DNA from: an uncultured Pelagibacteraceae bacterium
GTDB lineage: Bacteria > Pseudomonadota > Alphaproteobacteria > Pelagibacterales > Pelagibacteraceae
Direction: 5' to 3'
Length of the DNA: 33,976 nt
NCBI GenBank assembly: GCA_902517535.1
Contig: CABYCK010000008.1
Span: forward strand, 1-33,976
Each line of letters begins with the position of its first letter. Position 1 is the stretch's first letter. This document shows, in pieces, positions 29,942 to 33,749 of this stretch. The position numbers were made by a program, and so were the translations under genes. The notes below the pieces were generated by a model. It was given only the letters and a program-made list of their open reading frames with translations, was not told the DNA's origin and searched no databases.

Positions 29942-30300
29942 TGCCAGATAATTGGATTGTCGCTATTTAGATTTAAATAGAGGAAAGTCCGGGCTCCATA
30001 AAGACACAGTGCCAGTTAATGGCTGGCGAGAGTGATCTTAGGGATAGTGCCACAGAAAATAAACCGCCTTATCAAGGCAAGGGTGAAACGGTGAGGTAAG
30101 AGCTCACCGGTTTTTTGGTAACAAAAAACGCATGGCAAACCCCACTGGGAGCAAGGTTAAATAGAGAAGACGCCGCAGAAATGCAAAAAACAGTCTTTAG
30201 TTAGTCTTCTGGGTTAACCGCTTGAGCTTGAGTGTGAACTCAAGCCTAGACAAATGACTTCTTAAATGACAGAACCCGGCTTACAGATTGTCTGGCTAAT
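29942..30300 (+). ncRNA. rnpB: RNase P RNA, bacterial type A
   Basis: Catalytic RNA that cuts 5' leaders from tRNA precursors with the RnpA protein. Conserved regions are all in order: CR-I GAGGAAAGTCCGGGCTCC (29980-29997), CR-II/III AGGGTGAAACGGTGAG (near 30080), CR-IV GGCAAACCCCAC (30134-30145) and CR-V ACAGAACCCGGCTTACAG (near 30268-30286). P1 closes the molecule: GCCAGATAAT (29943-29952) pairs with ATTGTCTGGC (30287-30296), 10 bp with one wobble. CR-I and CR-V form helix P4. Size of about 355 nt is normal. No T-rich intrinsic terminator follows, so the 3' end is probably made by processing. mraZ starts about 140 nt downstream. Confidence 0.97.
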
Positions 30301-30347
30301 CACTCTTCAATGTTCTCTATTTGTGCTAATTGCATAAAACTAATGTA

Positions 30348-30375
30348 TTGACTATTAATTTAAAACCCATACTAT
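30348..30375 (+). promoter_or_regulatory. Candidate promoter of the mraZ-ftsZ operon
   Basis: TTGACT (30348-30353), 16-nt spacer, TACTAT (30370-30375), with a start expected near 30382 and a leader of about 60 nt before mraZ. The -10 and start region are covered by the three CCCAW repeats of the MraZ operator, which fits autorepression and strengthens the call. Confidence 0.5.
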
Positions 30376-30390
30376 CCCAAATAATCCCAT
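30366..30390. promoter_or_regulatory. MraZ operator: three CCCAW repeats at exact 10-bp spacing
   Basis: CCCAT (30366-30370), CCCAA (30376-30380) and CCCAT (30386-30390), each separated by 5 nt. Read on the other strand these are three direct TGGG-type repeats with 5-nt spacers, the arrangement established as the MraZ binding site upstream of mraZ in E. coli. They overlap the predicted -10 and start site of the mraZ promoter. This implies autorepression of the whole cluster, including ftsZ here. Confidence 0.75.
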
Positions 30391-30440
30391 AATGGAGGGT
30401 GATTTGAAAATATTAAAAGAAATAAAGGTTTTAAATAACA

Positions 30441-30905
30441 ATGTTTTTATCAAGTTACGAAAACAAAATAGACAAAAAGGGAAGGGTTTCAGTGCCTGCA
30501 ACTTTTAGATCACATCTAAGCTCTCTAGGTTATAACGGATTTATTAGCTATCCTTCATTTAATCATTCCGCTTTAGAGGCATGTACTCAAGAAAGAATAG
30601 AAAAACTATCTAATACAATAGACTCTTTGAACCCATTTGAAGAAAAAAGAGATTATTTTGCAACATCAATACTATCTGAAAGTGTAAATCTTCAATTTGA
30701 TACTGAAGGCAGAATTTCTCTGACAGAAAAATTAATCGATCATGCAAAAATAAAAAACAACATATTGTTTGTTGGTTTAGGTAAAACATTTCAAATTTGG
30801 GACCCCAATATATTTGAGAAATTTAAAACAGAGGCCAGAAAAAAAGCTTTTAAAAATAGAGGAAGTCTAAAATGGGAAAACAAACAAAAAGGAGAGGAAG
30901 AATGA
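30441..30905 (+). CDS. mraZ: Transcriptional regulator MraZ
   Basis: 154 aa with two SpoVT/AbrB-type DNA-binding halves: N-terminal SSYENKIDKKGRVSVPATFRSHL (about 4-26) and the second around NLQFDTEGRISLTEKLIDHAKI (about 83-104), followed by FVGLGKTFQIWDPNIFEKF. MraZ forms ring oligomers that bind spaced TGGG repeats and repress the division and cell wall cluster. Matching repeats lie at 30366-30390. The stop overlaps the ftsZ ATG (ATGA), so ftsZ translation is coupled to that of mraZ. In most bacteria the next gene is rsmH; here it is ftsZ. The Lys/Glu-rich C-terminal tail also encodes the strong ribosome-binding site of ftsZ (AGGAGAGG). Confidence 0.95.
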   Translation: MFLSSYENKIDKKGRVSVPATFRSHLSSLGYNGFISYPSFNHSALEACTQERIEKLSNTIDSLNPFEEKRDYFATSILSESVNLQFDTEGRISLTEKLIDHAKIKNNILFVGLGKTFQIWDPNIFEKFKTEARKKAFKNRGSLKWENKQKGEEE

Positions 30906-32386
30906 GCATAAATATAGGTGGAGGGGAATTAAAAGAATTAAAACCTAGAATTTTAGTTTTAGGTATTGGCGGAGCAGGTGGTAATGCGATTAATGAAATG
31001 ATCGAATCTGGTATGGAAGGTGTCGAATTTGTAGCAATTAACACAGATGCTCAAGACTTAAAAAAGAGCAAAGCTCACGCAAAAATTCAAATTGGTATGA
31101 ATTTAACTAAAGGCTTGGGTGCTGGTGCGAAACATAATATTGGTCAAGCAGCTGCAGATGAGTCAATAGGTGAAATAGTTAATTATATACAAGGAAGTAA
31201 TATGGTTTTTATTGCTGCTGGAATGGGCGGAGGTACAGGTACCGGAGCTTCACATGTTATAGCTAAAGCTGCTAAAGAATTAAATATTTTAACCGTTGGA
31301 GTTACTACATTGCCCTTTGATTATGAGGGTTCAAAAAGAATGAGAAGAGCTTTAGAGGGATTAGAGGCATTGAAAAAATATTTAGATACTACGATAGTTG
31401 TACCAAACCAAAATCTATTTAAAATTGCCAGCGAAACGACAACATTTGAAGAGTCATTTCATCTATCAAATAATGTCTTAAGACATGGCGTGCAAAGTGT
31501 AACTGATCTAATGGTAAGACCAGGCATGATTAATTTAGATTTTGCTGATGTTGAAACAGTAATGAGTTCAATGGGTAAAGCAATGATGGGAACAGGAGAA
31601 TCACAGGGTGAAAACAGAGCTATGGCAGCCACAGAAATGGCCTTAAACAATCCGTTAATAGATGAGTATTCTCTTAAAGGTGCAAAAGGTCTTTTAATAA
31701 ATATTACTGGAGGTAGAGATTTAACTTTATTTGAAGTCGATCAAACAGTTCAAAAAGTAAGAGCTGAAGTTGATCCTGAAGTAGAATTAATTTTCGGAGC
31801 TATAAAAGATGAAAATATGGATGGCAAAATGAGAGTTTCTATTGTTGCCACAGCCTTAGATGGAGTTAAGAGAGAGTCAAGCACAGTGCTAAATATGGTT
31901 TCTCGAATTCAGGATCGAAATCATGGACATTCAGATGGACTTTTTTCTCATAACTCAAACATAGAGAACAACACTCTAAATTCAATAGAAGGCGCTACAG
32001 CTTTAAAATTGGATGAAAAATTTGAAGTTAAAGAGGAAGAAAATAAATCAATTATTAACAACTTAGAAGAAAATGTTTCTCAATCAGAAAACTCACTTTC
32101 TGAAAACGAGGCAAATTTCGATGATATTCCTAACGGAGTTTCTATCGAGAATACTTCTTATATAGAAAATAATAATGAAATCGAATCTTCAGAAAATTTA
32201 AGTTCAGGTCTTGAAGTAGGAACAAGTCATCAGGAAGAAGAATATACTCCTAAATTATTTTCAGATGACAATGAAAATAATTTGGAAGAGTTTAGCGACC
32301 CAAGAACTGAAAAACTATTTGATCAGGACTCAAATGAAGAAGAGGATTTTGAGATACCTGCGTTTTTAAGAAAACAAAAATTTTAA
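30902..32386 (+). CDS. ftsZ: Cell division GTPase FtsZ
   Basis: 494 aa from ATG 30902; the frame opens 30 nt earlier inside mraZ, but 30902 has AGGAGAGG at 30889-30896 in front and gives the usual MSINIG start. Tubulin-like core: GIGGAGGNAINEM (21-33), GTP signature GMGGGTGTG (107-115), TLPFDYEG, VVPNQNLF, T7 loop NLDFADV (211-217) completing the neighbour's GTPase site, and FGAIKDENMDGKMRVSIVATALDG. A long acidic, Ser/Asn/Glu-rich linker (about 330-475) leads to the conserved C-terminal peptide FEIPAFLRKQKF that binds FtsA and other partners. Placed between mraZ and rsmH instead of after ftsQA. 18 nt before rsmH. Confidence 0.98.
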   Translation: MSINIGGGELKELKPRILVLGIGGAGGNAINEMIESGMEGVEFVAINTDAQDLKKSKAHAKIQIGMNLTKGLGAGAKHNIGQAAADESIGEIVNYIQGSNMVFIAAGMGGGTGTGASHVIAKAAKELNILTVGVTTLPFDYEGSKRMRRALEGLEALKKYLDTTIVVPNQNLFKIASETTTFEESFHLSNNVLRHGVQSVTDLMVRPGMINLDFADVETVMSSMGKAMMGTGESQGENRAMAATEMALNNPLIDEYSLKGAKGLLINITGGRDLTLFEVDQTVQKVRAEVDPEVELIFGAIKDENMDGKMRVSIVATALDGVKRESSTVLNMVSRIQDRNHGHSDGLFSHNSNIENNTLNSIEGATALKLDEKFEVKEEENKSIINNLEENVSQSENSLSENEANFDDIPNGVSIENTSYIENNNEIESSENLSSGLEVGTSHQEEEYTPKLFSDDNENNLEEFSDPRTEKLFDQDSNEEEDFEIPAFLRKQKF

Positions 32387-32404: not shown

Positions 32405-33418
32405 ATGACCCTCTCAAACTCACCACTGGAATTATCTCATTTTCCAGTGATGTTGAATGAGGTAATTGAAATTTGCTCTCCTAATAAAGGAGGATTTTTT
32501 GTAGATTGTACCTTTGGCGGCGGTGGATACTCTAAAAAAATACTTGAATTTTCTAATACTAAAGTTGTAGCATTCGATCGTGACAAATATACCTTTAACA
32601 CTGCTAAAGACCTTCAAAAAAAATATCCTAAAAGATTTTCTTTTTATCAAAAAAAATTTAGTGAAATAGATACTGTTATTGGTGATCAATTAGTTGACAT
32701 TATTCTATTTGACTTAGGTCTATCAAAAATTCAACTAAATAATTTAGATAGAGGCTTTTCTTTTAAATCCAAAAAAAAACTTGATATGTCCATGGGTTTG
32801 ACCTCGATATCTGCAGAAGAAGTTATAAACAATTTGGATCCAAAAAAATTAAAATCAATTATCCAGATTTTAGGGGAAGAAAAAGATGCGTCAAAAATTG
32901 TTAAAAATATAATACGATCCAGATCGATTAAAAAAATATCCAAAGTAAATGAACTGGTTGAAATAATTATAAAAAGTAAAAAAAAAAATTATAAAAACAA
33001 GATAAATCCTTGCACAAAAACATTTCAAGCTTTAAGAATTTTTGTAAATAAAGAGATATCAGAACTGACAAAAGGCATTATAAATGCCGCAAAAGTTTTA
33101 AAACCTGGAGGGAAAATTTTAATTGTAAGTTTTCATTCAATAGAGGACAAAATTGTTAAATTTTTTTTTAACAACTTTTCTTCTAATAGATCCAGGCCAT
33201 CAAGATATATCCCCGAAAAGAATAATGACAATTCTTTATTATTTAATAAGTATAAAAATAAAGCGATGATACCGACAGCCAAAGAAATTGCTAAAAATTT
33301 TCCTTCTCGTTCAGCAAAACTAAGATATGCAATTAGAAATGGAAATAAATTTACTTATCCTAAAGAACTGATAGTTAAGTTTAAAAAATACTTAGATTTG
33401 GAGAACAGCCATGCTTAA
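32405..33418 (+). CDS. rsmH: 16S rRNA (cytosine(1402)-N(4))-methyltransferase RsmH (MraW)
   Basis: 337 aa SAM-dependent enzyme that methylates N4 of C1402 in the 16S rRNA decoding centre. Diagnostic parts: SHFPVMLNEVIEICSPNKGGFFVDCTFGGGGYS (about 10-42, motif I), VVAFDRD, DIILFDLGLSKIQLNNLDRGFSFKSKKKLDMSMG (about 98-131), TKTFQALRIFVNKEISEL (about 200-217), KILIVSFHSIEDKIVKFFF (about 237-255) and the C-terminal PSRSAKLRYAIR. Length is slightly above E. coli RsmH. ATG 32405; the stop overlaps ftsL by 8 nt. Normal dcw neighbour of ftsL and ftsI; the unusual point is ftsZ upstream. Confidence 0.97.
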   Translation: MTLSNSPLELSHFPVMLNEVIEICSPNKGGFFVDCTFGGGGYSKKILEFSNTKVVAFDRDKYTFNTAKDLQKKYPKRFSFYQKKFSEIDTVIGDQLVDIILFDLGLSKIQLNNLDRGFSFKSKKKLDMSMGLTSISAEEVINNLDPKKLKSIIQILGEEKDASKIVKNIIRSRSIKKISKVNELVEIIIKSKKKNYKNKINPCTKTFQALRIFVNKEISELTKGIINAAKVLKPGGKILIVSFHSIEDKIVKFFFNNFSSNRSRPSRYIPEKNNDNSLLFNKYKNKAMIPTAKEIAKNFPSRSAKLRYAIRNGNKFTYPKELIVKFKKYLDLENSHA

Positions 33419-33749
33419 GTCTAAAATTATTATCTCTTTTATAATATTTTCAGTTTTTTTAGGAGTTACTTCATTTATTAAAACACAAACTAGAATTATA
33501 GAAAAAGATATAAATAAGTTAGATAGAAAAATTGCAAAAATCAAAACTGATTTGCATGAGACTCAACTAGATTATTTTTATCTCACTTCACCTGTAAACT
33601 TAACAAAACAAATAAAGAGTCTTGATTTAATTGAATATTTACCAATGGATTTTTCAAGAATTTATTTAAATTTTGAAGATTTTACAGACAATCAAAGAAA
33701 AATAACTATTTTTAAATCTGATGATAAGAAAAAAAAAGAAAAAAGATAA
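33411..33749 (+). CDS. ftsL: FtsL-like cell division protein
   Basis: 112 aa bitopic protein: short basic N-terminus, one transmembrane helix (about 6-22, IIISFIIFSVFLGVTSFI), then a periplasmic coiled coil (about 28-58, RIIEKDINKLDRKIAKIKTDLHETQLDYFYLTSP). The YLTSPVNLTKQIKSLDLIEYLP stretch fits alphaproteobacterial FtsL, where a similar NxPxxLE segment ends the coil. FtsL with FtsB and FtsQ activates FtsWI septal peptidoglycan synthesis. Sequence identity in this family is low, so the call rests equally on topology and on its position between rsmH (8 nt overlap) and the ftsI start (29 nt overlap). Confidence 0.87.
   Translation: MLKSKIIISFIIFSVFLGVTSFIKTQTRIIEKDINKLDRKIAKIKTDLHETQLDYFYLTSPVNLTKQIKSLDLIEYLPMDFSRIYLNFEDFTDNQRKITIFKSDDKKKKEKR

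Follow-up and report, generated by a model that had tools for sequence, protein, structure and literature searches.

The mraZ gene of a Pelagibacteraceae (SAR11) genome is preceded by a phased array of three short repeats (30366-30389) that, judged from its sequence and conservation, is very probably an MraZ operator through which MraZ would exert negative feedback on its own gene, on the dcw cluster, and on FtsZ. The array lies in the window, by which we mean the whole stretch of DNA analyzed here, 33,976 nucleotides in length, and the nearest named relatives of this DNA are Pelagibacteraceae (SAR11) single-cell genomes. SAR11 bacteria rank among the most abundant cells on Earth, and their transcription regulators are few in number. 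The locus would represent a one-operator regulon in which FtsZ is encoded one gene behind its presumed repressor, and division control could therefore be studied in a minimal circuit. Our literature search identified no papers on mraZ or ftsZ of SAR11 and no work on MraZ binding or expression in Pelagibacterales.

The features of the locus are compiled in Table 1. The original prediction had stated that a regulator gene directly follows the repeats, and the product of this gene was confirmed to be MraZ by scores above the respective cut-offs of both Pfam (PF02381; 70.3 bits vs a cut-off of 23) and the NCBIfam equivalog (NF001477; 182.1 bits vs a cut-off of 162). Relatives of the protein in the PDB are the MraZ entries 1n0e, 9qlg, 9sx6, and 9qlr, with MraZ chains matched at an E value of 1.7e-12 in a profile comparison. 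Its two DxxxR motifs read D11KKGR15 and D87TEGR91, and residues D11, R15, D87, and R91 are invariant in A1.

Table 1. Features of the mraZ-ftsZ locus, with positions as numbered in the window.
Feature	Position	Strand	Basis or remark
rnpB (RNase P RNA, class A)	29944..30299	+	Rfam RF00010, 308.7 bits; directly upstream
-35 element TTGACT of the mraZ promoter	30348..30353	+	Consensus scan and conserved position
Putative MraZ box 1	30366..30369	-	TGGG on - strand, CCCA on + strand
-10 element TACTAT	30370..30375	+	Consensus scan; forms the complete 6-bp gap between boxes 1 and 2
Putative MraZ box 2	30376..30379	-	TGGG on - strand
Putative MraZ box 3	30386..30389	-	TGGG on - strand
Shine-Dalgarno-like GGAGGG	30394..30399	+	Placed for TTG at 30404; 41 bp before the mraZ ATG
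Leader ORF	30404..30508	+	34 codons, +1 frame, TTG start, TAG stop at 30506
mraZ	30441..30905	+	154 aa; DxxxR motifs D11-R15 and D87-R91
ftsZ	30902..32386	+	494 aa from ATG at 30902; only FtsZ in the assembly
rsmH (mraW)	32405..33418	+	Pfam, NCBIfam; third in the cluster
Small ORF in the ftsL position	33411..33749	+	Without Pfam or NCBIfam assignment

Upstream of mraZ, CCCAT (30366-30370), CCCAA (30376-30380), and CCCAT (30386-30390) recur with a period of exactly 10 bp, and the strand opposite to the three CCCA boxes (30366, 30376, and 30386) reads TGGGATTATTTGGGATAGTATGGG. The predicted recurrence of three CCCA repeats at 10-bp intervals is thus exact in the sequence, and it also proved to be unique: the three-box pattern has one match in the whole 865,466-base assembly, the reversed control pattern has none, and dinucleotide shuffling of the 300-bp region preceding mraZ generated no in-phase three-box array in 20,000 trials. 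The repeats had further been predicted to overlap a promoter, TTGACT-16 bp-TACTAT (30348-30375). This promoter was recovered by a consensus scan, in which promoter-like matches taken alone were not above chance (3 found vs 4.6 expected by shuffling), and its register relative to the boxes is kept in relatives.

From the spacing of the -10 element, we infer a transcription start near 30381-30384, between boxes 2 and 3. MraZ bound to the array should keep RNA polymerase off the promoter, because the -10 element occupies the whole space separating box 1 from box 2 and the start would fall between boxes 2 and 3. Specifically, the MraZ ring would contact three TGGG half-sites, which share one face of the DNA and follow one another at intervals of a helical turn, and, when seated on the boxes, would cover both the -10 element and the start site. 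Such repression would lower transcription of mraZ and of the genes behind it, the first of which is ftsZ, and MraZ may in this way act as a homeostatic controller of the dcw cluster and FtsZ.

MraZ was detected in 269 of 297 genomes of the order Pelagibacterales. Whole-genome scans identified the three-box pattern in 133 of 148 genomes of the order and the control pattern in none of them. Each Pelagibacteraceae genome with the array had exactly one match, and genomes of the sister family within Pelagibacterales had one to three overlapping matches, all of them to a single array of three to five boxes. Where the position of mraZ was listed and coordinates were compared by eye, the array was situated at mraZ (20 of 20 genomes). 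The 15 genomes without a three-box match comprised seven that also lacked an mraZ match and eight from genera g2, g4, and g5; two exact boxes are kept in the four Pelagibacteraceae loci read from these three genera.

At the level of individual loci, at least three boxes in exact phase were identified upstream of mraZ in 110 of the 114 Pelagibacteraceae loci with enough upstream sequence, with two boxes in each of the remaining four, and 18 of 19 loci of the sister family have three to five boxes; the loci are phylogenetically related, and such counts are therefore not independent trials. Loss of the repeats in relatives that share the mraZ-ftsZ order would have weighed against the original prediction, and the repeats are instead retained. 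The interval between successive CCCA boxes in Pelagibacteraceae is exactly 10 bp in 224 of 230 cases. We also compiled 107 distinct sequence windows from this family, selected by the boxes alone and not by the promoter, in which TTGAC begins at -19 (57 windows) or -18 (50 windows) relative to box 1 and box 1 is separated from box 2 by TAnnnT without exception (107/107). This fixed register of the -35 and -10 elements indicates that the boxes and the promoter are locked together.

The window does not conform to the canonical dcw order, in which mraZ is followed by rsmH and ftsZ is found after ftsA, but rather has the order mraZ-ftsZ-rsmH. The claim that ftsZ is the second gene of the operon is consistent with this order, since ftsZ is directly after mraZ and rsmH is third, with mraZ and ftsZ presumed to be co-transcribed. 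The mraZ stop codon and the ftsZ ATG overlap as ATGA (30902-30905), which suggests translational coupling, and gaps between the two genes in Pelagibacteraceae are typically -4 to +10. Directly after mraZ, ftsZ was identified in all 115 Pelagibacteraceae loci, in 20 of 21 sister-family loci (the exception being a contig edge), and in all four loci of family f9, which is outside Pelagibacterales. Among 88 other loci of the class, ftsZ is never next; rsmH is next in 81, and neither gene was recognized in this position in the other seven. Complete genomes have the remaining cluster in standard order up to ftsA, and at two loci (L146 and L150) lpxC comes directly after ftsA with no ftsZ between them. 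Of 78 genomes, 75 encode one FtsZ, and no FtsZ was detected in the other three. Because ftsZ follows mraZ here while ftsA directly precedes lpxC, we conclude that ftsZ has left the end of the dcw cluster for the second position, an arrangement that is fixed in the order Pelagibacterales.

Family f9 (L062, L148, L149, L153, L159, and L179) has the order amidase-mraZ-ftsZ-rsmH that is common to Pelagibacterales. A HIMB59-like identity is conceivable for this family, and the placement of that lineage with respect to SAR11 is disputed (PMC3815206). Many assemblies of the sister family (e.g., G002:C1, G059:C1, and G043:C8) break approximately 1.2 kb past mraZ, close to where the conserved portion of ftsZ ends, and the FtsZ linker at this point may be repetitive or variable.

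The original prediction also held that the arrangement of MraZ and FtsZ is unusual. This is accurate with respect to the position of ftsZ, which is rare in the class, and less so with respect to control by MraZ, for which Mycoplasma provides a precedent. In M. genitalium, MraZ represses the mraZ-mraW-MG_223-ftsZ cluster (PMC8475190). This organism resembles SAR11 in being genome-reduced and in having the sole MraZ motif of its genome at mraZ, but it differs in its motif (AAAGTG[T/G]), in having ftsZ in fourth place, and in having no cell wall genes (PMC8475190). What is new in SAR11 is the second place of ftsZ, whereas MraZ control of a cluster that contains ftsZ was already known.

One alternative with an appreciable, if minor, likelihood is that the array is a true MraZ site but that ftsZ is mostly expressed by other means, such that MraZ hardly sets FtsZ. 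The candidate sources of such expression are read-through from rnpB, internal promoters, and translational control via a leader ORF. A terminator scan of the stretch that separates rnpB from mraZ (30299-30348 included) returned no terminator-like site, and read-through from rnpB could for this reason bypass the mraZ promoter. The overlapping leader ORF is conserved and has the stronger Shine-Dalgarno sequence, and E. coli is described as having no obvious mraZ phenotype in the account of Eraso et al. (2014) that is given in PMC8475190. These points are countered by the tight packing of mraZ and ftsZ with their ATGA overlap, by the single copy of FtsZ with no second gene, and by the higher FtsZ level of M. 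genitalium after deletion of mraZ (PMC8475190). In several other families of the class as well, rnpB apparently ends next to mraZ.

The conserved leader ORF that overlaps mraZ is new and is the most novel feature of the locus. In the window, GGAGGG precedes its TTG start, which is 37 nt before the mraZ ATG, between box 3 and mraZ, and the ORF overlaps the first 22 mraZ codons. Of 56 distinct leaders of this kind, 52 have a spacing to the mraZ ATG of 1 mod 3 and four have one of 0 mod 3, whereas 2 mod 3 never occurs. Stops in the leader frame occur in only two of these 56 leaders, compared with 76% expected by shuffling, and the other two frames of the same leaders have stops in 55 and 48 of them. 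The mean pairwise identity of the 37-nt leaders is 60%. When starts were matched to a Shine-Dalgarno sequence in 112 distinct Pelagibacteraceae leaders, 83 starts fell in the +1 frame, three shared the frame of mraZ, and none used the third frame.

In Pelagibacteraceae, the overlap itself is subject to strong synonymous constraint. From the mraZ ATG to +57, the +1 frame contains no stop in 109 of 110 distinct genes of this family, compared with 0.5 expected when synonymous codons are redrawn from the usage of each gene, an expectation that is unreliable for other loci of the class because of their mixed base composition. Elsewhere in mraZ, a 57-nt window with this frame open is very rare, and the frame of the overlap is open in only one of 18 genes of the sister family and in none of four genes of family f9. 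Codons 6, 8, and 11 of mraZ end in C (TAC/TTC, AAC, and GAC, respectively), where T would create a stop in the +1 frame, and codon 18 is GTG in all 110 genes although no stop is at stake. The constraint ends by mraZ codon 20, and the ORF stops at +59 or +65. The sole Pelagibacteraceae gene with a closed +1 frame (L115) is one of two with the leader in the mraZ frame. At L115, at L130, and in the sister family (e.g., L165), the leader and mraZ share a frame, which predicts an MraZ with an N-terminal extension.

The leader ORF is a case of unexplained, strongly selected dual coding in a streamlined genome. It is plausible, although we would place it somewhat short of an even prospect, that the dual-coded leader, which is confined to Pelagibacteraceae, is translated and either sets MraZ relative to FtsZ or encodes a small functional peptide. 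On a transcript from the operator, the best ribosome site would start the leader ORF and not mraZ. The most economical functional guess is that the leader ORF competes with or tunes initiation at mraZ, which would add a second, translational layer to the MraZ feedback. A programmed frameshift from the leader into MraZ, to which the in-frame leaders of L115, L130, and the sister family lend some support, is disfavored: the overlap frame stays free of stops over about 19 codons beyond the mraZ start, a slippery site was not recognized, and a frameshift fits less well because a shift within the overlap would delete the first DxxxR motif.

An alphaproteobacterial mraZ 5' leader has also been described from R. 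sphaeroides, where no promoter adjoins mraZ and where the leader, which includes UpsM, may contain an sORF (PMC5089854). A functional promoter next to mraZ is therefore not to be presumed in this class. That sORF overlaps the UpsM terminator and is found in R. sphaeroides only, whereas the SAR11 leader ORF overlaps the mraZ coding region.

In E. coli, according to Eraso et al. (2014) as summarized in PMC7761207, MraZ represses mraZ-murC. The E. coli MraZ site is agTGGGaaattgTGGGgcaaagTGGGaa, the core and period of which match the array in the window, and the E. coli Pmra likewise features three TGGG-N6 direct repeats with a 10-bp period at an mraZ promoter ahead of the dcw cluster. However, E. 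coli carries its repeats on the coding strand, after the -10 element, whereas the SAR11 repeats are on the template strand and enclose the -10 element. The two also differ in gene order, with rsmH second and ftsZ at the far end in E. coli and ftsZ second in SAR11. The description of the array as being like the E. coli MraZ box is therefore correct for the TGGG core and the 10-bp period and incorrect for strand and position. In B. cenocepacia, purified MraZ shifts a fragment carrying repeats with a 10-bp period (PMC7761207). These repeats extend across the transcription start, as those of SAR11 would given the predicted start, but they number four, are 7 nt long, have a GTG core, and lie downstream of the -10 element, and ftsZ is late in the cluster (PMC7761207). 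Because the orientation in SAR11 is opposite to that in E. coli and Burkholderia, the exact protein-DNA geometry is not transferable.

The array characterizes the alphaproteobacterial class as a whole, and having such an operator does not set SAR11 apart. Other loci of the class with mraZ have at least two boxes in 79 of 87 cases and at least three boxes in 58 of 87. Class genomes with rsmH but without detectable mraZ were also examined; after removal of six with divergent MraZ and one rsmH fragment from an initial set of 24, none of the remaining 17 has even two boxes in the kilobase upstream of rsmH. The match in core and period to the E. coli box and the absence of the array without mraZ strongly support MraZ as the probable reader of the array. 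Collectively, conservation, promoter register, and absence without mraZ argue for the autoregulatory MraZ circuit that had been predicted, with binding and repression by MraZ as inferred steps.

It is very unlikely that another regulator, such as a cell-cycle factor, binds the boxes and that MraZ is merely the first gene controlled; many regulators use helically phased repeats, but the core and period are those of the E. coli MraZ box, the motif is restricted to mraZ in each genome checked, and it is absent from the 17 mraZ-less genomes that keep rsmH. Less probable still is conservation of the phased G-runs as an mraZ-promoter G-quadruplex rather than as a protein site, since, although a G-quadruplex motif has been reported downstream of the S. 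aureus mraZ promoter (PMC11796246) and four G3 runs separated by loops no longer than 7 occur in 38 of the 87 other loci of the class and in 16 of the 19 from the sister family, four such runs with short loops occur in only one of 114 Pelagibacteraceae loci, the window has just three G-runs (on which ground a G-quadruplex was rejected for SAR11), a G-quadruplex needs neither exact 10-bp spacing nor an invariant A after CCC, and the array is gone where mraZ is absent.

Relative to the promoter, the MraZ box array is inverted between the alphaproteobacterial class and other classes, because the repeats are on the template strand in Alphaproteobacteria and on the coding strand in other classes of the phylum. 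The 79 class loci noted above have runs of at least two CCCA boxes (TGGG on the template strand) with the promoter covered. Among 30 loci from other classes of the phylum, runs of at least two TGGG boxes were identified on the coding strand in 13 and CCCA runs in one. Many of the remaining loci among these 30 have GTGG-type repeats, and the repeats of the other classes are typically downstream of the -10 element. Because the inversion holds throughout the class, the array in the window is a variant, and not a copy, of the E. coli arrangement. No mention of this inversion was found in the literature examined. The class-wide inversion offers a natural experiment on the mechanism of repression by the MraZ ring. 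In other Alphaproteobacteria (L184, L217, L235, L189, and others), the TTGAC of the -35 element is often located within one of the array's spacers (CCCATTGACNCCCA), and the boxes therefore span the whole promoter.
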